DNA from: Thermoanaerobacterales bacterium
GTDB lineage: Bacteria; Bacillota; Desulfotomaculia; Desulfotomaculales; JASEER01
Length of the DNA: 34,584 nt
Direction of reading: 5' to 3'
Assembly (NCBI GenBank): GCA_030019475.1
Contig: JASEER010000024.1
Coordinates: 1 to 34,584, forward strand
Every line of letters starts with the position of its first letter. The stretch's first letter is position 1. Under the pieces are notes generated by a model. That model saw only the letters and a program-made list of their open reading frames with translations. It made no database searches and was not told the origin of the DNA. Positions 10,810-29,446 of this stretch are shown piece after piece. The translations under genes and the position numbers were made by a program.

Positions 10810-11886
10810 CTAGCCGTCCACGTCCTTTTCCAGTTTGCGCAGCACCTCGCGTACCGCGCCCGTGGCGCCCCGCGAGGGGGCGTAGACGTAGGGGCGGCCG
10901 TAACGTTCGCAGATGTTCTCAACGTCCGGCATCTTATGTTTCATCGCCTCGGTGACGATGACCACGATGTCGGCCCGCTTCACCTTGCCTTCCAGGAAGC
11001 GGCCCACCATAAACCCCGATTCCCAGGTAAAGGACGCCCCCAGGCGTTCGAACATGCGCTTGAAGCTCTCCTTGTAAGCGTCGGCGCCGACCACCAGGAC
11101 GTTTACGCCGTCCAAGGGCAGGCGGTCATCGGCCGCGGCCTCTTTGGCCGGCCGCTCCCTTTTGTCCCGGCGGGGCGCGGTACGCGGTTCGCGCACGTCC
11201 AAGAACGCCTCCCCGGGGTCATATCGCCATGCCACCCGGGCCGTGGAGAGGTCGCCCGCCTCGTAGGCGATCTCGACCAGGTCCCCCTCGGCGAGATCCA
11301 GGCTTGTTACGTCCTGCGGGGGGACGGTCACAAAGGTCTCTTCCTCTTCACTGTACGCGCCCCAGGCGCCCCCGTGCTGTTCCAGCGGGGCCACGAAACT
11401 TGCCCGTCCGGAGGTGTCCGCCAGGCCTCGCCGCTCCAGGACCTGAAAGTAGTAGACCGGGGCCCCGCGCTCGTTGACCCCCCGGTCCCGCGCGCCGATC
11501 AGGTCGCCGTGCTCGATGCCCTCGGCGCGCACGACGGCCTCCGGGACGAAGATCTCCCGCCCGCTGCGGCTCTCGTTCAGAATCCCGCCGCGTACCAGCC
11601 GCGTGAACTCGCCGACGTGGTCCCATTCCTCCGCCTCCGCCGGCGGGAGCGGGGGCGGGGCATCCGCCCCGGTTCCGCCTTGTCCGGGGCCGGCGCCGTC
11701 CGCCGCGGCGGCAAGGTCGTCCTCGTACCTGCGCAGCCCCTCCTCTAAGAGCAGGAGGTCATGCGCCCGATCCACCAGTTCCCTTTCCTCTTCCGGCCCC
11801 GGGCGTTCCTCGTGCAGTCGCCGGTAAAGTCCCTCCCGTGCGGCACGCAGCAGCCCGATTACCCTCGCTACCGCCTCGCGCGGCAT
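10810..11886 (-). CDS. DUF2325 domain protein
   Basis: The protein has about 358 residues. The first 80 are charged and helical, with an acidic and proline-rich linker (about 60-85). A middle beta-rich region (about 90-230) follows, and the C-terminal 100 residues match the DUF2325 fold: VNVLVVGAD, then a segment around ADIVVIVT, then MPDVENICERYGRPYVYAPSRG split over two beta-alpha units. Function is unknown; a Rossmann-like regulatory domain is likely. I chose the ATG at 11886 because GGGAAGGGG precedes it at good spacing; a TTG at 11895 is less likely. It begins five bases after the aminotransferase stop, which makes an operon probable. Confidence 0.8.
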   Translation of the reverse strand: MPREAVARVIGLLRAAREGLYRRLHEERPGPEEERELVDRAHDLLLLEEGLRRYEDDLAAAADGAGPGQGGTGADAPPPLPPAEAEEWDHVGEFTRLVRGGILNESRSGREIFVPEAVVRAEGIEHGDLIGARDRGVNERGAPVYYFQVLERRGLADTSGRASFVAPLEQHGGAWGAYSEEEETFVTVPPQDVTSLDLAEGDLVEIAYEAGDLSTARVAWRYDPGEAFLDVREPRTAPRRDKRERPAKEAAADDRLPLDGVNVLVVGADAYKESFKRMFERLGASFTWESGFMVGRFLEGKVKRADIVVIVTEAMKHKMPDVENICERYGRPYVYAPSRGATGAVREVLRKLEKDVDG

Positions 11887-11891
11887 ATGGA

Positions 11892-13085
11892 TCAACCCCT
11901 TCCCTGCGAGGTCTCCCGTGCGATAACCGCCCGCACCCCGGGACGTCTCCCGACCTCGCGCAGCCGGTTTTCGCCACAGACCAGGGCTATTCGCACATAT
12001 CCTTCCCCCCGCGCGCCGAAAGCGACCCCGGGAACCACCAGCACTCCGGACTCCCGGACCAGGGTAACGGCGAAATCCCGTGAGGAAGTCCAGCCGCCGG
12101 GCAGGGGAGCCCAGACGAACATCGAGGCCTTCGGCCGGGGAACGTCCCAGCCCAGGGAGCGAAGTCCGTCGATTAAAACATCTCTCCTTCGCTGGTAGGT
12201 TGCGGCCGTTTGGCGGACGGCGTCCTGCGGCCCCCGCAGGGCGGCGGCTCCCGCCTTTTGCACGGCCCGGAAGACGCCGTAGTCGATGTTCGACTTAAGG
12301 ACACGCAGGGCGTCAAGCACCCGGGCGTTGCCGACGGCGAGCGCCAGCCGGCACCCCGCCATGTTGTAAGTCTTGGACAGCGAGTGGAACTCCACGCCGA
12401 CCTCCCGGGCGTTCCGCGCCTGCAGGAAACTGGGTGGGCGGTAGCCGTCAAAGGCCAGCTCGGAGTAGGCGGCGTCGTGTACCACCACGATGTCATAGCG
12501 CCGGGCGAAATCCGCCACTTCCTCGAAGAAGGGTACCTCGGCCGTCGCCGCCACCGGGTTGTTCGGGTAGTTCAGGACCAGGACCTTGGCCCGGCGGGCG
12601 ACCTCCGGGGGAACCGCTCCCAGGTCGGGCAGAAAGCCGTTTTCTTTCAGGAGCGGAAGGGGGTGGATCTCCCCGCCGGCGATGATCACCCCGGCACTGT
12701 AGATGGGGTAGCCCGGGTCCGGCACCAGGGCCGTGTCGCCCGGGTTCAGCAGGGCAAGGTAGATGTGGGCCAGGCCGTCCTGGGAGCCCATCAATGAAAG
12801 GACCTCACGCCGCGGGTCCAGCTCGACCCCGAAGCGCTCGCCGTACCAGTCGGCCACAGCCTGCTTGAACTCGGGCAGGCCCTCGGTCAGGGCGTAGCGG
12901 TAGGCGTCCGGCTCGTCCAGAGCCTCGTGCAGGACCCTGATGACGTGGGGCGCCGGCGGCAGGTCCGGGCTGCCGATGCTCAGGTCGATGATGTCCACTC
13001 CCCGCGCTTTCACCTCCCGCCCGATGGCGTCCAGTTCCGAAAAGACGGCGGTGTCAAGGCGCTGCAAGCGCCGGGCAAGCTCCAC
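11892..13085 (-). CDS. Class I/II PLP aminotransferase, LL-DAP aminotransferase-like
   Basis: This is a 397-residue fold-type I aminotransferase. The PLP-binding lysine is Lys238 in SLSKTYNMAG. Other family landmarks are IGSPD, YPNNP (around 173-177), HDAAYSEL and a C-terminal GEGYVRIAL-type arginine segment. The sequence resembles LL-diaminopimelate or aspartate/alanine aminotransferases of Clostridia. Substrate specificity cannot be read with certainty and no lysine-biosynthesis neighbours are present. The start is a GTG with AGGAGAG upstream. It sits between an MFS permease gene and the DUF2325 gene on the same strand. Confidence 0.92.
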   Translation of the reverse strand: MELARRLQRLDTAVFSELDAIGREVKARGVDIIDLSIGSPDLPPAPHVIRVLHEALDEPDAYRYALTEGLPEFKQAVADWYGERFGVELDPRREVLSLMGSQDGLAHIYLALLNPGDTALVPDPGYPIYSAGVIIAGGEIHPLPLLKENGFLPDLGAVPPEVARRAKVLVLNYPNNPVAATAEVPFFEEVADFARRYDIVVVHDAAYSELAFDGYRPPSFLQARNAREVGVEFHSLSKTYNMAGCRLALAVGNARVLDALRVLKSNIDYGVFRAVQKAGAAALRGPQDAVRQTAATYQRRRDVLIDGLRSLGWDVPRPKASMFVWAPLPGGWTSSRDFAVTLVRESGVLVVPGVAFGARGEGYVRIALVCGENRLREVGRRPGVRAVIARETSQGRG

Positions 13086-20094: not shown

Positions 20095-20643
20095 TCACTT
20101 CAGCGATGCCGGCGAACCATCTTGAGAGGGCATTACCTTTTCCGCCTCGGCCTTGAACTGCTTCAGGGATCCGCCACCCCAGCCGATGTGGGTCCGGCGC
20201 ACGGTTCCCCCGGCGTCGATGAATACGGTGTGGGGAATGCCCCCCACGTTGTAGGCCTTACCGCCCTCATTCATCGTGTCCAGCAGGACGGGGTATGAAA
20301 GGTTGTTCTCCCGCAAGAGGACCTCGACACTTTCCGCCGTGTCGCGCGTGACCAGCACAATGTCCAGGCCTCTCTCCCGCCACCCGGCCGTGTAGGGCTG
20401 CAACTGCAGCACCTCCTGGACGCATGAGCCTCACCCCGCAGAGAAGAAGAGCAGGGCCAGCGCCCGCCCCCGGTACGCGTCCGGGACGGTTATGGTCTTC
20501 CCCGTTTCCATGTCCACCGCCTTGAACGATGGGGCGGCCGCCCCTGCAGGGGTCTTCTTCCCGCCCACGCCGGCGCAGGACGCCAGGAAAAGGGCTAAGA
20601 ATAAGACCATCATCAAAAGCCAGGCCTTCCTAATCTCGTTCAC
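20095..20643 (-). CDS. TlpA-like lipoprotein thioredoxin, probable selenoprotein (UxxC active site)
   Basis: Two halves of one TlpA/thioredoxin-like domain lie in the same frame, separated only by a TGA at 20433-20431. Read through, the site is FFSAG-U-GSC, so TGA replaces the first cysteine of the CxxC active site. Upstream are a lipoprotein signal with lipobox LASC and the APSFKAVDMETGK strand; downstream are LDIVLVTRD, LDTMNEGGKAYNV and the cis-proline segment IPHTVFIDAGG. A hairpin resembling the bacterial SECIS lies just after the TGA. The outer bound is a GTG at 20643, but it overlaps AGGAGG; ATT at 20634, eight bases after the site, gives a better signal peptide (179 residues, Sec68, Cys71). 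It starts 12 bases after the polyferredoxin gene and likely acts as an extracytoplasmic disulfide reductase. The alternative is a nonsense mutation. Confidence 0.82.
20395..20413 (-). promoter_or_regulatory. SECIS-like hairpin for selenocysteine insertion
   Basis: On the minus strand, GG, a bulged T, GCTGC, the loop AGTT, GCAGC and CC form a seven-pair stem with one bulged U and a G-U in the loop. These are the features recognised by SelB in the E. coli fdhF SECIS. The stem begins 17 bases after the TGA, about six bases further than in fdhF, within the broader range known for other bacteria. It falls inside the coding sequence as bacterial SECIS elements do. Confidence 0.65.
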
Positions 20644-20654
20644 CTCCTCACTGT

Positions 20655-21533
20655 CTATCCCGGTATCCGAGGCCTGACGACCGACGACCGAATTGATGCC
20701 GGGCCGCACCTGAAGCTCAGGGCGCCACTGGGACAGGCCCGGGTGCACTCCAGGCAGCGGACGCACTCCCGCCCGTTCAGCTGCTCGTCCACCGGAAGGT
20801 CAAGGGGGCAGGCCGCCCGGCACGCGCCGCAACCAATACAACGCGCCCGGTCCCGTTCCAGGCGCCAGATGCTGACCGGGTTCAGCAGACTGTAAAAGGC
20901 ACCCAGAGGACATGCCACCCGGCAAAAAGGCCGGTACACGAAAACCATGGCTATCAGGAAGGCGGCGAGGACCAGGAACTTCCAGACCAGCAACGGTCCG
21001 GCAAGCGCACGGAGAGAGGCATCGGCGGCCAGCAGGGGGACGGCCGCTTCCAACGTCCCTGCCGGACAGAGGTATTTACAGAAATACGGCGCCCCGATCC
21101 CGCCGGCCCCGAGCCAGATGACGGGCAGGGCGACCGTCAGGGCCAGGACCACATATTTGCCCCCCAGGAGCCATCCCGGCAGGCGCCTGCGCCTCGCCCG
21201 GGGCCGGGCCAGCACCTCCTGCAGCAGCCCGAAGGGGCAAAGCCAGCCGCAGACGGCCCGTCCCACCACCACCCCCACAGCCATCAGGACGCCCAGCACG
21301 TAAAGGGGGACGGCATGTACGGGTCCGGCGAGGATGGCCTGGGCCGAGCCGACGGGACAAGCCCCCAGGGCGCCCGGGCAGGAATAGCAGTTCAAGAAGG
21401 GCAGGCAGATCTTCTTCGCCGGACCCTGGTAGATGGTTCCCCGGGCGAATCCCGGCCAGTAACCGTTCGCCGCCGCCGTGGCGGCAAGCTGCCAGAACCG
21501 CCGCGGCAGGCCGGCCAGGCGCGCCGCCCGCAT
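20655..21533 (-). CDS. NapH/YccM-like 4Fe-4S polyferredoxin membrane protein
   Basis: This is a 292-residue membrane electron carrier with about four to five helices. Cysteine motifs in order are CLPFLNCYSC with a following CPVG, CGWLCPFG, CKYLCPAG and CRVACPLG, then a C-terminal ferredoxin-type domain with CIGCGACRAACP and CVRCLECTRACP for two 4Fe-4S clusters. Related NapH/NosR-type proteins pass electrons from quinol or cytoplasmic donors across the membrane. It lies between the CXXC peptide gene and the seleno-thioredoxin gene on the same strand, which suggests that it supplies electrons to the thioredoxin. ATG at 21533 is chosen because CAGGGGG lies nine bases upstream; TTG at 21551 is possible. 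Confidence 0.9.
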   Translation of the reverse strand: MRAARLAGLPRRFWQLAATAAANGYWPGFARGTIYQGPAKKICLPFLNCYSCPGALGACPVGSAQAILAGPVHAVPLYVLGVLMAVGVVVGRAVCGWLCPFGLLQEVLARPRARRRRLPGWLLGGKYVVLALTVALPVIWLGAGGIGAPYFCKYLCPAGTLEAAVPLLAADASLRALAGPLLVWKFLVLAAFLIAMVFVYRPFCRVACPLGAFYSLLNPVSIWRLERDRARCIGCGACRAACPLDLPVDEQLNGRECVRCLECTRACPSGALSFRCGPASIRSSVVRPRIPG

Positions 21534-21604
21534 CTTCGGAGCCCCCTGCAAGATCCGTCACCACTCACTTCCCAATTGCCAGGCGATGTTATGCAAGCGT
21601 CATC

Positions 21605-22207: not shown

Positions 22208-22464
22208 CTAGGAGCGCCTGAGGGTCACCCCGACCCATGCAACGGACACGGGGAGGGTCCTGGTCCGGGCGTAGCCCGGGGCCTGCTCGCGGTTGAGAAA
22301 AAACAAGGCCGGCTGACCAGGTAGCGGAAGGCGTCGTCGAAGGACGTAAAGATCAGAGGCGCATCCCGGCCGCCGAACCAGGGCTTGCGGGTCATAACCC
22401 GGCCCCCGGCGACGATCGGGTAGGCGAAACTGCTTTAGCGCTGACCCGGACAATGTTTAACCAT
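22208..22464 (-). pseudogene. Decayed gene downstream of tupC
   Basis: An ATG at 22464 overlaps the end of the ABC ATPase gene and reads nine codons to an in-frame TAA. The same frame continues with a plausible sequence (FAYPIVAGGR, KPWFGGRDAPLIF, FDDAFRYLV), then near 22320 the natural-looking reading moves to another frame (ALFFLNREQAPGYARTRT, VSVAWVGVTL) up to a stop at 22208. The pattern fits one former gene of about 80 residues broken by a stop and a frameshift. I do not recognise the family. It belonged to the tungstate operon by position. Confidence 0.45.
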
Positions 22465-23200
22465 TTTCCCAGGGCATCCGCGCCGTGGCCGACGGAACGC
22501 CCGCGATGCCGAAGAGTTCCTCCACGTCACCCTCGCGGATTAGACGGCCGTCACGCAGGACGGCCACGTCCCGGGTCAGGTAGGGAATCTCGGTATAGTC
22601 GTGGGTGACGAAAACAGTCGTGATCCCCGTGCCCTTCAAGATATCGCCCATCTCCCGCAGCAGGCCTACCCGCGTCGGGTAATCCAGGGCGGAGAAGGGC
22701 TCGTCAAGGAACAGTACCTCCGGCTCCAGGGCGAAGGCGCGCGCCAGGCTGGTGCGCTGCGCCTCCCCGCCCGAGAGGAAGCGCGCCGGGCGGTCCGCCA
22801 GGTGGGCGATACCCAGCCGCTCGAGCCAGGCCTGCGCCCGCTCCAGGGCCGCCGCCCGCGGCACGCCCCGCAGCTTCAAGCCCAGGATCACATTCTCCCG
22901 CACCGTCGTGTCCAGGAGCAGCGCATCCTGGAAGACGACGGCCATCCGCCGGCGCAGGGCCAGGTTGTTGGCGCGGGTGGCTGTCTCCCCGGCCACGATT
23001 ACCCGGCCGGCGGTCGGCCGCTGCAGGAGCGCCAGAACCTGCAAAAGACTTGATTTCCCCGCCCCGTTCGGTCCCACCAGGGCCAGGACCTGGCCGCGGC
23101 GCACCGTAAAGGCCGGGATCTCCAGGATGGGGTGCCGCCCCTTGACCAGGCGCAGCCCCTCGGCGGCAATGGCGGCACCCGTGAGCGACGCATCGTTCAT
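22457..23200 (-). CDS. tupC: Tungstate ABC transporter ATP-binding protein
   Basis: This 247-residue ATPase powers tungstate import. Walker A is GPNGAGKS (residues 43-50), the signature is LSGGEAQR and Walker B is VLFLDEP, followed by the switch histidine in FVTHDY. Its ATG overlaps the permease stop by four bases (ATGA). The gene order A-B-C on the minus strand and the strong match of the binding protein to TupA identify the substrate class; molybdate cannot be fully excluded. Confidence 0.92.
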   Translation of the reverse strand: MNDASLTGAAIAAEGLRLVKGRHPILEIPAFTVRRGQVLALVGPNGAGKSSLLQVLALLQRPTAGRVIVAGETATRANNLALRRRMAVVFQDALLLDTTVRENVILGLKLRGVPRAAALERAQAWLERLGIAHLADRPARFLSGGEAQRTSLARAFALEPEVLFLDEPFSALDYPTRVGLLREMGDILKGTGITTVFVTHDYTEIPYLTRDVAVLRDGRLIREGDVEELFGIAGVPSATARMPWENG

Positions 23201-23898
23201 GCCGGCTGCCGCCCCCTCTGCTGCAGGTATGTCAGGGCACCCGTGATGATAAACGAGATGGCCAGGAGGATAATACTCAGCGCGGTGGCCAGCTCAAACT
23301 TGCCCTTCGAGACCTCCAGGACAATGGCCGTGGTCATCACCCGCGTCATCCCGGCGATGTTCCCCCCGACCATCATCGAGGCCCCGACCTCCGAGATCAC
23401 CCCGCCGAAGCCGGCGATGATCGCCGCCAGGAGGCCCAGGCGCGCCTCGCGCCAGATCAGCCACAGGAACTGGCCGCGCGAGGCGCCCAGGGCCAGGATC
23501 TGCAGCCTGATCTTCGGGTTCACGGACTGGATGGCCGCCACCGTGAACCCGGCCACGATCGGGGTGGCGATGATGGCCTGGGCGATGATCATCGCCGTCT
23601 GGCTGTAGAGCAGCCCCAGGAACCCGAGCGGCCCGTAGCGCGCCAGGGTCAGCCAGGTCACCAGCCCGACCACCGTCGGGGGGAAGCCCATCCCCAGGTA
23701 GACCAGACTCAAGGTCAACTGCCGCCCGGCGAAACGGTGCAGCGCCAGGTAGGTCCCCAGGGGCACCCCCAGCAGGACGCTGACCACCGTCGCCGTCGTC
23801 GAAACGCGCAGGGTGCGCAGGACGATGTCGTAAACCTCCGGATCAAGCGATATCAGAAGGCGGACCGCCTCCGCGAATCCCTCGGCGTAAACGCCCAC
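23197..23898 (-). CDS. tupB: Tungstate ABC transporter permease
   Basis: This 233-residue integral membrane permease has about five to six helices. An EAA-type loop lies near residues 140-165 (segment GASRGQFLWLIWREA), which contacts the ATPase. GTG start at 23898 follows AAAGGGG at seven bases. It overlaps tupC by four bases and lies 22 bases after tupA. Confidence 0.92.
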   Translation of the reverse strand: MGVYAEGFAEAVRLLISLDPEVYDIVLRTLRVSTTATVVSVLLGVPLGTYLALHRFAGRQLTLSLVYLGMGFPPTVVGLVTWLTLARYGPLGFLGLLYSQTAMIIAQAIIATPIVAGFTVAAIQSVNPKIRLQILALGASRGQFLWLIWREARLGLLAAIIAGFGGVISEVGASMMVGGNIAGMTRVMTTAIVLEVSKGKFELATALSIILLAISFIITGALTYLQQRGRQPA

Positions 23899-23920
23899 GA
23901 TCTAGCCCCTTTGCGATCTA

Positions 23921-24817
23921 CTAACCGAGATCGGCCTCGTTCTTCCCGGCGTCCGGCACGAACAGGGACTGGCCGAACTTGTCTTTGCCGAACTCGCCGA
24001 TCATCTTTTGCGTCTCCGGGGCGACCATGAAGTCCACGAAGGCCTTCGCCCCCTCGTAATTCACCTTCTCAAACTTCTCGGGGTTGACGGCCATCACATG
24101 GTAGATGTTCAGCAGGGACTTGTCGCCTTCCTTCAGGACGGCCAGCTTCAGGTTGGCCTTCTGGGCCAGGTAGGTCGCCCGGTCGGTCAGGGTGTAGCCC
24201 TGCTTCTCGGAGGCCACCTGCAGGGTCTGGCCCATGCCGGCGCCCGTGCTCTGGTACCAGGCGCCCGAAGGCTTCTCGATCCCGGCCGCCTTCCAGATGG
24301 AGAGTTCCTTCTTATGTGTCCCGGAGTCATCGCCGCGGGAGACGAAGATCACAGGCTTGGAAGCGATCTGCATTAAGGCCTTGGGACTGGTCTTGGCGTT
24401 CTTAATCCCCGCCGGATCGTTTTCCGGGCCGACGATAATGAAGTCGTTGTGCATCACCAGGGTGTAGTCGATGCCCACCCCCGCGTCGACCAGTTCCTTC
24501 TCGCTGGCCGGGGCGTGCACCAGCAGGACGTCGGCCTCCCCTTTCTTGCCCATCTCCAGGGCCTGGCCGGTACCGACAGAGATCGTCTTCACCTTGTAGC
24601 CGGTCTGCTTCTCAAACTCCGGCACCAGGACGTCCAGCAAACCCGAGTCGACGGTGCTGGTCGTGGTGGCCAGGATGACGTCCTTGACCTCCGGCTCCGC
24701 CGCCTGCTGCTGCGGTTCCTTCCGGGCCTGATCCGCCGCCTGTCCGCCGCAGCCGGCGGCGAAGGCCGCCACCAGGGCCAGGGCGATGATGAGAGCGAGA
24801 ACCTTCTTGAGATACAC
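23921..24817 (-). CDS. tupA: Tungstate-binding lipoprotein TupA
   Basis: This is the substrate-binding protein of the transporter (298 residues). A lipoprotein signal ends in AAGC (Cys23) and is followed by a charged linker. The mature domain begins ILATTTSTVDSGLLD, the hallmark TTTST segment of TupA proteins that helps bind the oxyanion. A later SRGDDSGTHKKE segment is another signature of the family. The GTG start follows AAGGAGG at ten bases. It is the first gene behind a structured leader with a terminator, so expression is likely controlled by a tungsten- or cofactor-related signal. Confidence 0.94.
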   Translation of the reverse strand: MYLKKVLALIIALALVAAFAAGCGGQAADQARKEPQQQAAEPEVKDVILATTTSTVDSGLLDVLVPEFEKQTGYKVKTISVGTGQALEMGKKGEADVLLVHAPASEKELVDAGVGIDYTLVMHNDFIIVGPENDPAGIKNAKTSPKALMQIASKPVIFVSRGDDSGTHKKELSIWKAAGIEKPSGAWYQSTGAGMGQTLQVASEKQGYTLTDRATYLAQKANLKLAVLKEGDKSLLNIYHVMAVNPEKFEKVNYEGAKAFVDFMVAPETQKMIGEFGKDKFGQSLFVPDAGKNEADLG

Positions 24818-24858
24818 TACCGTTCAGCCTCCTTAAAAATGAATTGGTGAAGCGTCCA

Positions 24859-24904
24859 CAAAAAAAGCCGGGCCCTGCGAAAAGTACAGCAAGGCCCGGC
24901 TTTT
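24859..24904 (-). terminator. Intrinsic terminator in the tupA leader
   Basis: On the minus strand, AAAAGCCGGGCC and GGCCCGGCTTTT form a 12-base-pair stem around a loop of about 20 bases, ending in a run of seven T. It lies between the structured domain and the tupA start codon, the arrangement of a transcription-terminating riboswitch. Confidence 0.9.
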
Positions 24905-24920
24905 GCGACCGAGACATCTT

Positions 24921-25030
24921 GTTCTCCTTTCCGCACTGGGAGGCGCACCCGTTTCCCGGTACACCCTGAGCGGTCCGCCGTCCATAGCCTTCAGTGGTGC
25001 CGAGGCCTTAGGTCCGGGGACTCGGAGATA
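24921..25030 (-). promoter_or_regulatory. Structured leader of tupABC, possible Mo/W-cofactor riboswitch
   Basis: On the minus strand the element opens with TCTCC and closes with GGAGA, which can pair. A CCGAG/CTCGG helix follows near the 5' side, and a later arm pairs GTGTACC with GGGTGCGC around a GAAA-containing loop. Promoter, folded domain, terminator and tupA follow in order. Molybdenum/tungsten-cofactor (Moco) riboswitches are known ahead of such transporters and contain GNRA-loop hairpins, so this is my leading candidate. I cannot confirm the match by covariance here. Confidence 0.6.
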
Positions 25031-25031
25031 C

Positions 25032-25061
25032 TTTATACGATTGTCTTAGTGGCATTGTCTA
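25032..25061 (-). promoter_or_regulatory. Promoter of the tupABC leader
   Basis: TAGACA (25061-25056) and TATAAA (25037-25032) on the minus strand are separated by 18 bases. The structured leader starts immediately downstream. Confidence 0.6.
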
Positions 25062-25153
25062 TTCTCCCTTCTTGCGCAAAATCCTGCCCCCCATCGCAAA
25101 AACTTTCCGCCGGCGGACAGACTGCCCTCCCCAAAGCCCTTCTTGCATAAATC

Positions 25154-25165
25154 GCCTCTAGAGGC
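25154..25165. promoter_or_regulatory. Palindrome upstream of the second TupA homologue
   Basis: The perfect 12-base palindrome GCCTCTAGAGGC lies 40 bases before the start codon and next to a CATAAA -10-like sequence. It is a good candidate operator. The inner ten bases recur at 14408-14417 in the divergent region between the MFS transporter and the DUF2512 gene. Confidence 0.4.
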
Positions 25166-25204
25166 AAATGCTAAGCGTACCGCAAGCCAAGGAGGGATGG
25201 CAAC

Positions 25205-25987
25205 ATGCCGAGAACGAACCTCGTCCTGGCCACCACCACCAGCGCCCAGGACAGCGGCCTCCTGGGATCCCTGCTGCCGGCCTTCCGGAACAAGACCGGG
25301 CTGGTCGTCGAGGTCCAGGCCGTCGGGTCCGGGATGGCCTTCGACAAGGCGCGCCAAGGACAGGCCGACGTCCTTCTGACCCACGACCCGTTGACCGAGC
25401 GGGAACTCCTGGACCAGGGGATCATCACCGAGTATAAGCTCATCATGCACAACGACTTCATCATCGTCGGCCCGCCCGACGACCCGGCCGGCATCCGCGG
25501 CGAAGACAAGGCCTCGGCGGCCTTGCGCCGGATCGCCGAGCGTAACGCGCTGTGGGTCTCACGGGGCGACTGGTCGGGCACCCACACCCGGGAAATGCGG
25601 CTCTGGAAGGACGCCGCCGCCAAGCCGTCCAACGTCACGGAGACCAAGCGCGGCATGGCCGAAACCCTGGCCATCGCCTCCGGCAAGAAGGGCTACTGCC
25701 TGACCGACCGCGCCACCTACCTGGCCGGGAAGCAGGACCTCGCCCTGGACGTTATGGTGGAGAAAGACGAGCCCCTGCTCAACCTGTATCACGTCTCCAT
25801 GGTCAACCCGGCCCGCTTCCCCGAGGTGAACGCCGACGGCGCGCGCCGCCTGATAGACTTCTTCCTTTCGGGCGAAGCCCAGGGGATCATCGCCGGCTTC
25901 ATGCGCGACCGCTTCCCGACCCCCCTCTTCTACGCCGACGCCGGAAAAACCGAGGAAGACGTCGCCAGGGAACGCCTGCAAATTTAG
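25205..25987 (+). CDS. TupA-like tungstate-binding protein without signal peptide
   Basis: The 260-residue protein is clearly homologous to TupA (ATTTSAQDSGLL, MHNDFIIVGP, SRGDWSGTH, CLTDRATYL) but begins MPRTNLVLATTTS, directly at the binding domain, with no signal peptide or lipobox. The ATG follows AAGGAGGG at good spacing, and no plausible secretion signal occurs upstream in frame. It would stay in the cytoplasm and may buffer, sense or deliver tungstate or molybdate. It is transcribed divergently from tupABC, separated by the leader region. Confidence 0.88.
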   Translation: MPRTNLVLATTTSAQDSGLLGSLLPAFRNKTGLVVEVQAVGSGMAFDKARQGQADVLLTHDPLTERELLDQGIITEYKLIMHNDFIIVGPPDDPAGIRGEDKASAALRRIAERNALWVSRGDWSGTHTREMRLWKDAAAKPSNVTETKRGMAETLAIASGKKGYCLTDRATYLAGKQDLALDVMVEKDEPLLNLYHVSMVNPARFPEVNADGARRLIDFFLSGEAQGIIAGFMRDRFPTPLFYADAGKTEEDVARERLQI

Positions 25988-26053: not shown

Positions 26054-26086
26054 GAATACGACACTTTGTTCAACGGGGGCGACAGG

Positions 26087-29000
26087 ATGCGCGAGCTATC
26101 CGAAGCGGGACGGAAGGTGTTCGAAGCACGTTACGCGGCCAAAGATGAGCGGGGACGGGTCGTGGAAACGTTTGAGCAGGCCGTGGAACGGATCGCGGTC
26201 GCCGCGGCGGGCGCCGAAAAGGGAAGGCAGAAGAAAACCTGGGCATCCCGCTTCGCCGCCGCCATCGGGGACCTGACCTTCGTACCGTCCACCCCTATCT
26301 GGGCCAATATGGGCAAGACCGACCGCCCCTGGCAACCATCCGCCTGCTTTGTCCTCGCCCTTGAGGATTCCCTGGAATCGATGTACCAGACCCTGAAGGA
26401 AACCGCCCTGGTCTTCAAATCCGGCGGCGGCGTGGGCTACAACTTCAGCCCCATCCGCCCGCGCGGCGCCATGGTCAGCTCCACGAAGGGCCACGCCAGC
26501 GGGGTCGTGGAACTCATCCGGCTCTACGACGCCTCCTCGGGGATGGTTATGCAGGGCGGGGTGCGGCGCGGAGCCTCGATGGGCATCTTAAACGCCGACC
26601 ACCCGGAGATCATCGATTTCATTAACAGCAAGCGCAGCGGGGCGATCACCCACTTCAACCTCTCCGTGGGGATCACCGACGCCTTCATGGAGGCGCGGGT
26701 AAAGGACGCCGATTGGCCGCTGGTCTTCGACGGGAAGACCTACGACGTGGTCAAGGCCCGCGACCTCTGGCACCTGATCACCGAAGCCGCCCACGCCTGC
26801 GGCGACCCGGGGCTCGTCTTCCTGGACCGCCTGCAGCGGGACAACCCCGTCCCGTCCAAACCGATCAACGCGACCAACCCGTGCTTCCATCCGGATACCC
26901 TTATCGCCACGGAAAAGGGACTGGAGCGGATCGAAGACCTATATGCCCGTGCCCGGCAGGAAGATGTCTGTGTAGCGACGGACGACCGGGTATTCGGCTG
27001 CCTGAAAGTGGTTAATGGTCGTACCTACCTGATTCCCGGGGTGACTCTGCGTCGAGCGGCGGTAGTCAAGACCGGACGGCGACCGACCGTCAGGGTGAAT
27101 CTGGCCAATGGCCAGGAGATCAAGGTAACCCCTGAGCACCGCCTGCTCACCGCCCGCGGCTGGGTAGAAGTATCCCGGCTCGTCGTAGGAGACCAGATCC
27201 TCGTGCAGTCGGGTACCGGCGGATTTGCTTCAACTGACGGTATTGGAAAGGAACTTGGTTATTTCCTGGGCTGGCTGACCGGGGACGGTTGGCTCACCAA
27301 GGACCTGGTTGTCGGCATGGTCTTCAGCGCCGATGATGAACACCTGATTCCGATGTTCCTGTCAATTGCCGAAAAGTACGGTGGTGGCCGGCGTAAGGCC
27401 TACAAGAGACCCAATGGTACCTGGAATGTCTTCTGGAAGCGGAAGGATTTTGTCCGCCGTTTAATGCAGCTTGGTGTCCGCCCGGTCAAAGCCCGTGGGA
27501 AACGTGTACCGGCAGCCGTTTTCACGGCCGCGAAGGATACCGTAGTCGCCTTTCTTCAGGCCCTTTTCAGCGCCGACGGAACGGTTAATTTCCATTCGGC
27601 AAACCACCGTGATGTCCGGCTGTCGTCCGGTTCGAAGGCGCTTCTGCAGGATGTTCAATTACTGCTCTTAAACCTGGGCATCTTCAGCAACATCTATGAG
27701 CGCCGAAAGAAGCATCCCAAGTCTTTTGTCTACTATGCGACCGATGGGCAAAGGAAAACGTACACCGGAGAAGACTATTATGAACTGATCATTAACGGCA
27801 ACGATCTTCTCCGCTTCAACGAAACCGTGGGCTTTCGGCTCAGCCCTGCTAAAGACGAAAAACTGCGCTTGGCGGCCCGTCCTTCCAGGAAGTCAACCTA
27901 CTTTGTTTCTCCCGTTGTCAGTGTCGAGCCGGCTGAGGAGGTTGACGTTTACGACATTGTTGAGCCCGTTACGCATTCTCTGATTGCAAATGGCATCGTG
28001 GCTCACAATTGCGGCGAGCAGCCTCTGTCCCCCGGGGAGTCCTGCCTGCTGGGGAGCATCAGCCTGGAGAAGATGCTCCGACCGGCCGGGGACGGCTATG
28101 AAATCGACTGGGACAGGCTCGCCGAGACCACCTGCACCGGCGTCCGCTTCCTGGACGACATCATCGACGTCGCCGCCTACCCCCTCGATTACATCGCCGA
28201 GGCCACCCGCGCCACCCGCAAGATCGGGCTGGGGGTCACCGGCCTGCACGACATGCTGATCATGCTCGGCCTGCCTTACGACAGCGAAGAAGGGCGGAAT
28301 AGGGCCGCCGAGGTCCTGCGCTTCATCCGGAAGACGGCCCACGCCTACTCCGAAGAGCTGGCCGCGGCGCGCGGCCCCTTCCCGGACTGGGAGAAAAGCG
28401 TCTTCTACCCGCACACGAAGCGCCGCAACGCGGCCTGCATCACCATCGCCCCCACCGGCTCGGTGACCACCATGGCCGGCTGCGAGGGCTACGGCATCGA
28501 GCCCATCTTCGCCGTGGCCTACTCCAAGGCCACCGACGTCGCCGGAACCTTCGAAGTCTTCTCCCCCCTCTTCCGTGCGGCCTGCGAGCGGCGCGGAGTC
28601 CCGCGGGAGGTCATGTCCGAGGTCGCCCGCCGCGGTTCCTGCCAGGGCGTCGAGGGCGTCCCCGAAGACCTGCAGGCCATCTTCAAGGGCGCGCAGGACA
28701 TCGCGCCGGAGGATCACGTCCACATGCAGATCGAACTGCAAAAACACGTCGACAACGCCATCTCCAAGACCGTCAACCTCCCCAACTCGGCCACCATCTA
28801 CGACGTGGAACGGATCTATGAAACGGCCTACGAAGGCGGGCTGAAAGGAATCACCATCTTCCGCGACGGCTGCAAAGAGGGCGTCGTGACCGTCGGCAAG
28901 AAAGAGGCTGCTCCCCGCGCGCGGGGCGAGTTCGCCCGCGGCGAAATCAGGCCCCGGCCGGCCAACGCCCAGGGCGTCACCCACCGCCTGGACTCCGGCT

Positions 29001-29446
29001 GCGGCAAGATCTACCTTACGGTCAACTACCTGCCGGAAAACGGCGAGATCATCGAGACCTTTATCACCACCGGCTCCGACGGCGGCTGCCTGATTTACAC
29101 CGAAGCGACCTCGCGCCTCATCAGTCTGGCCATCCGCGGCGGGATCAGCATCGAGGAGATCGTCGAGCAGTTGAACAGCACCCACGCCTGCCCATCCTAC
29201 CAGTTCGCCCGAGGCCGCGGCAAGCCGGTCTCCCCCGGCAAGTCCTGCGCCTCGGCCATCGCCCGCAAATTGACGGAAATAAAGGAACAGCTGGCATCGC
29301 GGCACCGGGAAGGCCGCCTCAGCGAGCAACTGGAAAGCCAGCCGGAGGACAAAGAGCGCCCGGACCACTGTCCCGTGTGCGGCGAGGTGATGCGCCGCGC
29401 CGAGGGGTGCTTCGTCTGCCAGAACTGCGGGTACGGGAAGTGCTAG
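26087..29446 (+). CDS. nrdJ: Adenosylcobalamin-dependent ribonucleotide reductase, class II, intein-containing
   Basis: The enzyme makes deoxyribonucleotides using vitamin B12 coenzyme and works with or without oxygen. The precursor has 1119 residues; without the 376-residue intein it is about 743. The intein splits the conserved active-site segment NP^CGEQPL, whose cysteine carries the thiyl radical. Other family segments include FVLALEDSLESMY, FKSGGGVGYNFSP and GGVRRGASMG. The C-terminus ends in a zinc-ribbon-like CPVCGEVM...CFVCQNCG, typical of the redox tail. I chose ATG 26087 with GGGGG upstream; TTG 26066 adds seven residues. It works alongside the class III enzyme encoded by nrdD. Confidence 0.95.
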   Translation: MRELSEAGRKVFEARYAAKDERGRVVETFEQAVERIAVAAAGAEKGRQKKTWASRFAAAIGDLTFVPSTPIWANMGKTDRPWQPSACFVLALEDSLESMYQTLKETALVFKSGGGVGYNFSPIRPRGAMVSSTKGHASGVVELIRLYDASSGMVMQGGVRRGASMGILNADHPEIIDFINSKRSGAITHFNLSVGITDAFMEARVKDADWPLVFDGKTYDVVKARDLWHLITEAAHACGDPGLVFLDRLQRDNPVPSKPINATNPCFHPDTLIATEKGLERIEDLYARARQEDVCVATDDRVFGCLKVVNGRTYLIPGVTLRRAAVVKTGRRPTVRVNLANGQEIKVTPEHRLLTARGWVEVSRLVVGDQILVQSGTGGFASTDGIGKELGYFLGWLTGDGWLTKDLVVGMVFSADDEHLIPMFLSIAEKYGGGRRKAYKRPNGTWNVFWKRKDFVRRLMQLGVRPVKARGKRVPAAVFTAAKDTVVAFLQALFSADGTVNFHSANHRDVRLSSGSKALLQDVQLLLLNLGIFSNIYERRKKHPKSFVYYATDGQRKTYTGEDYYELIINGNDLLRFNETVGFRLSPAKDEKLRLAARPSRKSTYFVSPVVSVEPAEEVDVYDIVEPVTHSLIANGIVAHNCGEQPLSPGESCLLGSISLEKMLRPAGDGYEIDWDRLAETTCTGVRFLDDIIDVAAYPLDYIAEATRATRKIGLGVTGLHDMLIMLGLPYDSEEGRNRAAEVLRFIRKTAHAYSEELAAARGPFPDWEKSVFYPHTKRRNAACITIAPTGSVTTMAGCEGYGIEPIFAVAYSKATDVAGTFEVFSPLFRAACERRGVPREVMSEVARRGSCQGVEGVPEDLQAIFKGAQDIAPEDHVHMQIELQKHVDNAISKTVNLPNSATIYDVERIYETAYEGGLKGITIFRDGCKEGVVTVGKKEAAPRARGEFARGEIRPRPANAQGVTHRLDSGCGKIYLTVNYLPENGEIIETFITTGSDGGCLIYTEATSRLISLAIRGGISIEEIVEQLNSTHACPSYQFARGRGKPVSPGKSCASAIARKLTEIKEQLASRHREGRLSEQLESQPEDKERPDHCPVCGEVMRRAEGCFVCQNCGYGKC
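26882..28009 (+). mobile_element. Intein with LAGLIDADG-type endonuclease within nrdJ
   Basis: The insert is 376 residues in frame. It starts with Cys (CFHPDTLIATEKG, block A), has a TPEHRLL block B, two LAGLIDADG-like motifs (LGWLTGDGW and LQALFSADGT), a block F region (VYDIVEPVTHSL) and ends in VAHN followed by Cys, the classical splice junction. It appears less GC-rich than its host gene, which fits horizontal transfer. The protein must splice out for the reductase to work, since it separates NP from CGEQPL. The endonuclease may still be active. Confidence 0.95.

Follow-up and report, generated by a model that had tools for sequence, protein, structure and literature searches.

A selenocysteine-containing TlpA/ResA-type lipoprotein, predicted from an in-frame UGA, and its conserved NapH/MauN-type Fe-S membrane partner

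On the minus strand of the window (the whole stretch of DNA analysed here, 34,584 nucleotides in length) a gene for a NapH/MauN-type membrane protein is followed closely by one for a TlpA/ResA-type lipoprotein; coordinates for both, and for the features discussed below, are collected in Table 1. The lipoprotein gene forms a single frame from GTG 20643 to a TGA stop at 20097–20095, in which the sole internal stop is itself a TGA. Translation may begin at this GTG, which abuts a GGAGG, or at a codon shortly after it; every candidate start lies 5' of the lipobox. An earlier note on this DNA had proposed that the two open halves around the internal TGA make up one TlpA domain, as is borne out by matches of the read-through protein to the Pfam families AhpC-TSA (residues 34–150, 8.3e-17) and Redoxin (residues 33–154, 3.1e-14), both of which span the TGA. 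The same note placed the TGA at the first cysteine of a CxxC motif, and the alignment agrees with this; the immediate surroundings read LLFFSAGU71GSC74VQEVLQLQPY. Also upheld are its statements that the gene encodes a lipobox, and that the second half has no convincing start of its own—the possible GTG at 20412 falling after the active site.

Table 1. Features of the lipoprotein gene and its upstream partner (window coordinates)
Feature	Position	Strand	Remarks
NapH/MauN-type membrane protein gene	20655..21551	(-)	298 aa; ends 11 nt before GTG 20643
TlpA/ResA-type lipoprotein CDS	20095..20643	(-)	182 aa, with TGA read as selenocysteine; start codon uncertain
Lipobox LASC, lipidation Cys23	20575..20586	(-)	ends hydrophobic signal-like stretch
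Sec-UGA codon	20431..20433	(-)	residue U71, first position of CxxC; motif U71 G S C74
Cys74 codon, second active-site residue	20422..20424	(-)	invariant among relatives
bSECIS hairpin (predicted)	20394..20414	(-)	frozen codons; fits published bSECIS limits
Pro137 codon, thioredoxin-fold cis-proline position	20233..20235	(-)	invariant alignment column

An AlphaFold2 model of the lipoprotein, built with 27 aligned relatives, has a mean pLDDT of 92.9 and adopts a thioredoxin fold with the TlpA/ResA layout. ResA is the best match both by sequence profile against the PDB (4nmu, 1e-33) and by fold (TM-score 0.87–0.92 on the target). The CxxC-type active site (here UxxC), the cis-proline and the signals for export and anchoring are all present, with a lipobox-like motif, [LVI]xx[GAS]C, also found in the listed relatives. 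Judged from its predicted fold and lipobox, the product of 20095–20643 is almost certainly a membrane-anchored, extracytoplasmic TlpA/ResA-type thioredoxin, with selenocysteine as its putative attacking residue.

The upstream partner has two stretches of Fer4_5 and, at its C-terminus, a 4Fe-4S dicluster domain, and carries invariant cysteine motifs. It matches the Pfam families Fer4_5 and Fer4 but scores well under the cut-offs of the NapH models (TIGR02163, 61.4 against 213 bits; NF007013, 49.4 against 234 bits), and we therefore refer to it as ‘NapH/MauN-type’ rather than as NapH. Its AlphaFold2 model is poor (pLDDT 58.7) and was not used. The family-averaged hydropathy indicates three strong hydrophobic helices, with positively charged loops at 102–133 and 206–297; we offer, as a suggestion only, a topology in which the invariant pair C158/C162 would face outwards and the ferredoxin domain inwards, with C49/C55/C58/C65 also outside should a weaker first helix be allowed. 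Elsewhere in the window, the open reading frames at 22457–25987 resemble a tungstate-type ABC transporter (ATPase, permease and substrate-binding protein), with another substrate-binding protein, placed divergently, at 25205–25987; both are named from the ORFs alone. A vitamin B12-type ribonucleotide reductase, carrying an intein with a LAGLIDADG domain, lies at 26066–29446 (+), and a 361-residue protein that ends in a DUF2325 domain, and whose N-terminal part has no known domain, at 10810–11895 (-).

As to the UGA codon itself, 31 distinct loci, drawn from separate assemblies, have a TGA at the identical active-site position, and none has TAA or TAG. Within the order of the source organism these loci span five families or more, and in the rest of Bacillota several others, Syntrophomonas included; among cultured strains, Syntrophomonas wolfei subsp. 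methylbutyratica JCM 14075 carries the gene (locus L056). Sixteen of them were collected with the pattern C[VRA]x[EK]VLQLQP, which biases that part of the sample towards an amino-acid motif and not towards particular codons; other loci were gathered without it. The homologue comparison called for in the earlier note thus returns TGA at this codon, with cysteine in one nested relative (see below), so that an in-frame UGA stands where homologues have Cys. A scan of 113 genomes for a TGA, 18 nt and the core of the hairpin described below gave a single hit apiece in 12 genomes, every one of them within this gene; in the same 113, a control with the pattern reversed gave no matches. In the phylum at large, genome G256 contains two TGA-bearing matches to the Sec family (C34:188316 and C1:189260).

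The source genome also has the apparatus for SelB-dependent insertion of selenocysteine, and the absence of selB/selC that the note named as grounds for abandoning its reading was not seen. selB scores 381.9 bits, over its cut-off, and is adjoined by selA on contig C20; tRNA-Sec (78.6 bits, anticodon TCA, i.e. UCA) was not found beside selAB and is located on another contig; and selD is present in two copies, each with one in-frame TGA. In both of these selD copies (L063, C32:13654; L064, C2:53505) the TGA opens the glycine-rich loop (GUAAK and GUACK).

Downstream of the UGA we find a predicted hairpin with a core stem of 5 bp (20410–20406 paired with 20401–20397) and an apical loop, AGUU (20405–20402), that starts 25 nt after the UGA; below the core, an unpaired U at 20411 is followed by three lower pairs (20414–20412 with 20396–20394), giving 8 bp with the lower stem included. 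The published limits for bacterial SECIS elements cover loop size, a G at loop position 2 followed by U, stem length, spacing and energy (PMC13188914), and the hairpin satisfies every one of them. Its energy is −12.0 kcal/mol for the window's own sequence, weakening to as little as −5.5 in a few relatives on the same 22-nt piece. Folding energy alone lends the SECIS no support, the z-score of the 50-nt stretch, calculated from sequence only, being an unremarkable 0.28; likewise, an Rfam scan of the region gave no match, to a bSECIS family or otherwise.

The more telling signal lies in codon choice. Across the 31 loci, codons +7 to +11 after the UGA read xxG YTG CAG KTG CAR, with synonymous identities of 1.00, 0.77, 1.00, 1.00 and 0.94 set against the 0.26, 0.27, 0.55, 0.27 and 0.55 that codon usage in those genes predicts; in the codons on either side, synonymous identity is near expectation. 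At codon +7 the amino acid varies (V, M, A, L) and the third base is always G. The one variable stem pair (C-G, U-G or U-A) remains paired in every sequence; evidence from covariation is nonetheless thin (77 of 500 shuffles perform as well) because the hairpin is almost invariant and offers few changes to count, and the case for it therefore rests on synonymous freezing, which argues that the hairpin is under selection at the level of RNA. Conservation, machinery, the SECIS and this RNA-level selection provide four independent lines of evidence, and leave little room for doubt that the UGA would be read as selenocysteine; comparative genomics could hardly make a predicted assignment much firmer.

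In a maximum-likelihood tree the Sec family forms one group (support 100/99). The sole intact Cys homologue, from genome G016 (SPNCPACVQELIALRDQ), is nested in this group with strong support and, because it sits there, is most simply read as a putative Sec-to-Cys reversion. No trace of the hairpin is left in codons +7 to +11 of this homologue (CTT ATC GCC CTA CGG), and the NapH-type partner gene is still present beside it. Since these codons are frozen in the 31 Sec members and have thawed in the Cys revertant, we infer that the protein motif (V/A/M)LQ(L/V)QP is probably imposed by the RNA rather than by protein function. Loss of the Sec machinery was considered as an explanation for the revertant and rejected, G016 and its near relative G027 both retaining selB. 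Genome G027 has a Cys-type copy of its own (L122 / L031, C1:1730152–1730620), frameshifted over two frames through either decay or assembly error.

Of the 23 distinct relatives that could be tested, 22, the Cys revertant among them, have the Fe-S partner, which the earlier note left unmentioned, immediately 5' of the thioredoxin gene; two loci that end too early to judge are left out, and a Sec gene without a partner occurs at locus L051. Partner homologues are 44–65% identical, and are usually found within a few hundred bases of the Sec codon. No third gene near the pair is common to all families, the larger neighbour clusters at Sec loci being either specific to a lineage or out-of-frame shadows. 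Genes of the same partner subfamily are also found in front of another TlpA-type lineage of the order, separate in the tree, in which both active-site kinds are found: NFWTTTUGYC (G023, G080, G081, G082) and NFWSTTURPC (G057) as Sec forms, NFWATFCGPC (G041, G096) and NFWATYCGPC (G050) as Cys forms, none of them reaching an NCBIfam cut-off. The pairing thus outlasts a change of both lineage and redox atom. The Sec loci of this second lineage are L159–L161, L163 and L166, in genomes G023, G082, G080, G081 and G057.

The two kinds of ResA-like gene differ sharply in their linkage to CcdA. Cys ResA-type genes of the order, defined as all matches at E 1e-12 or better, adjoin a CcdA (DsbD_TM) gene in 31 of 31 cases, as against 0 of 14 for genes of the Sec family (lineage A). 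At the level of whole genomes, CcdA is present in 1 of 14 with the module and in 50 of 99 others (Fisher p = 0.003, relatedness ignored); restricted to genomes at least 90% complete, the figures are 1 of 10 with and 38 of 70 without (p = 0.015, relatedness again ignored). The split recurs within families: in f6, G005, G020, G031 and G040 have the module without CcdA, and G049 and G058 have CcdA without the module; f14 divides in the same way (G089 versus G044, G053 and G088). The exception is the window's own genome, with one CcdA on contig C63, and there the partner is therefore not the sole possible donor. Several genomes with the second TlpA lineage have both the partner and CcdA. A link to cytochrome c maturation through ResB was dropped, as ResB occurs in at most 7 of the 14 module genomes, and also in genomes without the module, giving no clear association.

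From these observations we infer an electron donor, a direction of flow and a substrate for the lipoprotein. The UGA would be recoded by SelB and tRNA-Sec via the coding-region stem-loop that lies 25 nt further 3', to yield a lipoprotein held at the outer surface of the cytoplasmic membrane, where its selenol would attack disulfides; Cys74 would then resolve the adduct, generating a U71–C74 selenenylsulfide. The Fe-S membrane protein would re-reduce this bond with electrons from a low-potential, ferredoxin-like donor in the cytoplasm, leaving the reduced lipoprotein to reduce disulfides, or other oxidised sulfur/metal sites, of exported proteins, as CcdA/ResA does elsewhere. Of the readings considered, the most likely is that the lipoprotein works as a reductase supplied with electrons by the Fe-S protein, a view we hold with measured rather than high confidence; taken jointly, selenoprotein assignment and Fe-S-driven reductase role make up an account that we regard as probable.

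A rival reading, in which a ResA-type gene is decaying and the TGA is a nonsense mutation or else an error of sequencing, is one to which we give practically no credence. A pseudogene would indeed show a stop inside the thioredoxin domain, and the G027 relative does have its frameshifted Cys copy; the recurrence of the same stop, and of no other, in 31 separately assembled loci, the frozen hairpin codons, the complete Sec machinery and the lack of any further stop in frame all speak the other way, and the comparative data have already refuted it. A miscalled TGC or TGT, the other outcome that the note had said would undo its reading, is for the same reason—31 distinct loci from independent assemblies—excluded in practice. 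Nor do we see much in the idea of a short protein starting at GTG 20412, with the first half as a separate peptide: an AGGAG precedes this codon, yet many relatives have GAAGTG there without it, and the UxxC region that such a start would leave 5' of the protein is conserved in all relatives; we judge it highly improbable.

Two further alternatives accept the selenocysteine and differ over what it does. The lipoprotein could be a peroxidase, reducing peroxides outside the membrane and itself re-reduced by the Fe-S protein or another donor: its Pfam matches are to AhpC-TSA and Redoxin, some members match peroxiredoxin models weakly, and selenols are suited to peroxide reduction. The layout here is UxxC, though, with the disulfide-type resolving Cys74 invariant, whereas peroxiredoxins have (T/S)xxC, with Sec/Cys second; the motif PxxxTxxC/U is absent from the Sec family, which has FFSxGUxxC in its place, and ResA remains the best match by both sequence and fold. 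We consider a peroxidase rather unlikely. Alternatively, the Sec lipoprotein may serve the Fe-S protein, by extracytoplasmic Cys reduction or by metal/cluster insertion, with the latter having some other job such as metal reduction—an activity that has reportedly been seen for CcoG. TlpA-type proteins act in metal-site maturation in other systems, and sequence conservation is higher in the partner (50–65% identity, versus 29–50% for the lipoprotein), which would favour this reversal. Two points count against it, neither of them decisive: the partner is paired with two TlpA lineages and both active-site kinds, and genes of lineage A are never found linked to CcdA, which is the usual donor. This arrangement, too, seems to us unlikely.

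More broadly, we propose that a NapH/MauN-type [4Fe-4S] membrane protein and a (seleno)TlpA lipoprotein may work together as a trans-membrane disulfide reductase, driven by ferredoxin and taking the place of CcdA in anaerobic Bacillota, Sec being ancestral in one lineage and either Sec or Cys being used in another; this we put forward tentatively, its chances being in our estimation a little short of even. If true, it would add a third electron route to extracytoplasmic thioredoxins, besides the CcdA/DsbD-type and quinone-type. For anaerobes that have no CcdA, the conserved pairing suggests a concrete and testable way in which extracytoplasmic disulfides could be reduced, with Fe-S chemistry linked directly to a selenol. 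The Sec family, for its part, is a natural experiment of unusual clarity on a SECIS, its codons frozen in all Sec members and released in one revertant. As automated annotation splits or truncates such genes, this exported redox protein will be missing from most gene lists of syntrophic and sulfate-reducing-type Bacillota.

Selenocysteine-containing TlpA-type proteins are already a known kind. A 2026 inventory of 119 prokaryotic selenoprotein families or subfamilies (PMC13188914) includes in its Table 1 a UxxC ‘thiol-disulfide isomerase-like protein’ (cd02966) and a UxxC ‘Redoxin family protein’ (PF08534), and lists ‘UGC-containing TlpA’, DsbA-like and DsbG-like selenoproteins besides. The remark in the earlier note that a selenol working outside the membrane is uncommon is thus a fair one; as an idea it is not new, given the DsbA-like, DsbG-like and TlpA-like (cd02966) entries. 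The cd02966 and PF08534 entries, compared by table description only, share the domain class and Sec position of the present family, and unlike it have no partner described there (PMC13188914). The inventory's representative of the cd02966 entry is MGB1650493.1; HEU0032618.1 is another representative that it gives. A published pair of NapH-type protein and seleno-TlpA was not found in the open-access literature. The ResA-like WAxxUGC protein NF041054 and the ‘UGC-containing TlpA’ similarly join a ResA-like domain to Sec, differing in motif (UGC rather than the UGSC, or UxxC, seen here); our protein scores 31.7 bits against the NF041054 cut-off of 300 (WAxxUGC_long, a 354-position model). It has no match at E 0.001 to the UGSC family NF041046, and the shared letters are a coincidence, relatives reading UPGC, URPC, UPAC etc. 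Across NCBIfam, neither the Sec lipoprotein nor its partner reaches the cut-off of any model.

ResA is a membrane-anchored thiol-disulfide oxidoreductase of cytochrome c maturation. With ResA/StoA the Sec lipoprotein has in common the thioredoxin fold, the TlpA layout, the active-site pair, a glutamate (Glu77) three residues past the second Cys and the cis-proline position; it departs from them in the replacement of the first Cys by Sec, in having FFSxGU for NFWATWC, and in never lying beside CcdA, the gene linkage that marks ResA proper. It scores 65 bits against a cut-off of 170 for the NCBIfam ResA model NF002854, a comparison to be read in the knowledge that even a CcdA-linked ResA fragment of the same order falls under that cut-off (117.6). 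In the mau cluster, which serves the maturation of methylamine dehydrogenase, the TlpA-like MauD is paired with the NapH-type ferredoxin proteins MauM/MauN; both window genes match these models weakly, at scores far under the cut-offs, and no mau genes lie nearby within the window. In its proposed job, finally, the pair would resemble CcdA/ResA and DsbD/TlpA, delivering electrons across the membrane to a thioredoxin-like protein that is anchored to it, with the distinction that a NapH/MauN-type Fe-S membrane protein would stand in the place of CcdA/DsbD.
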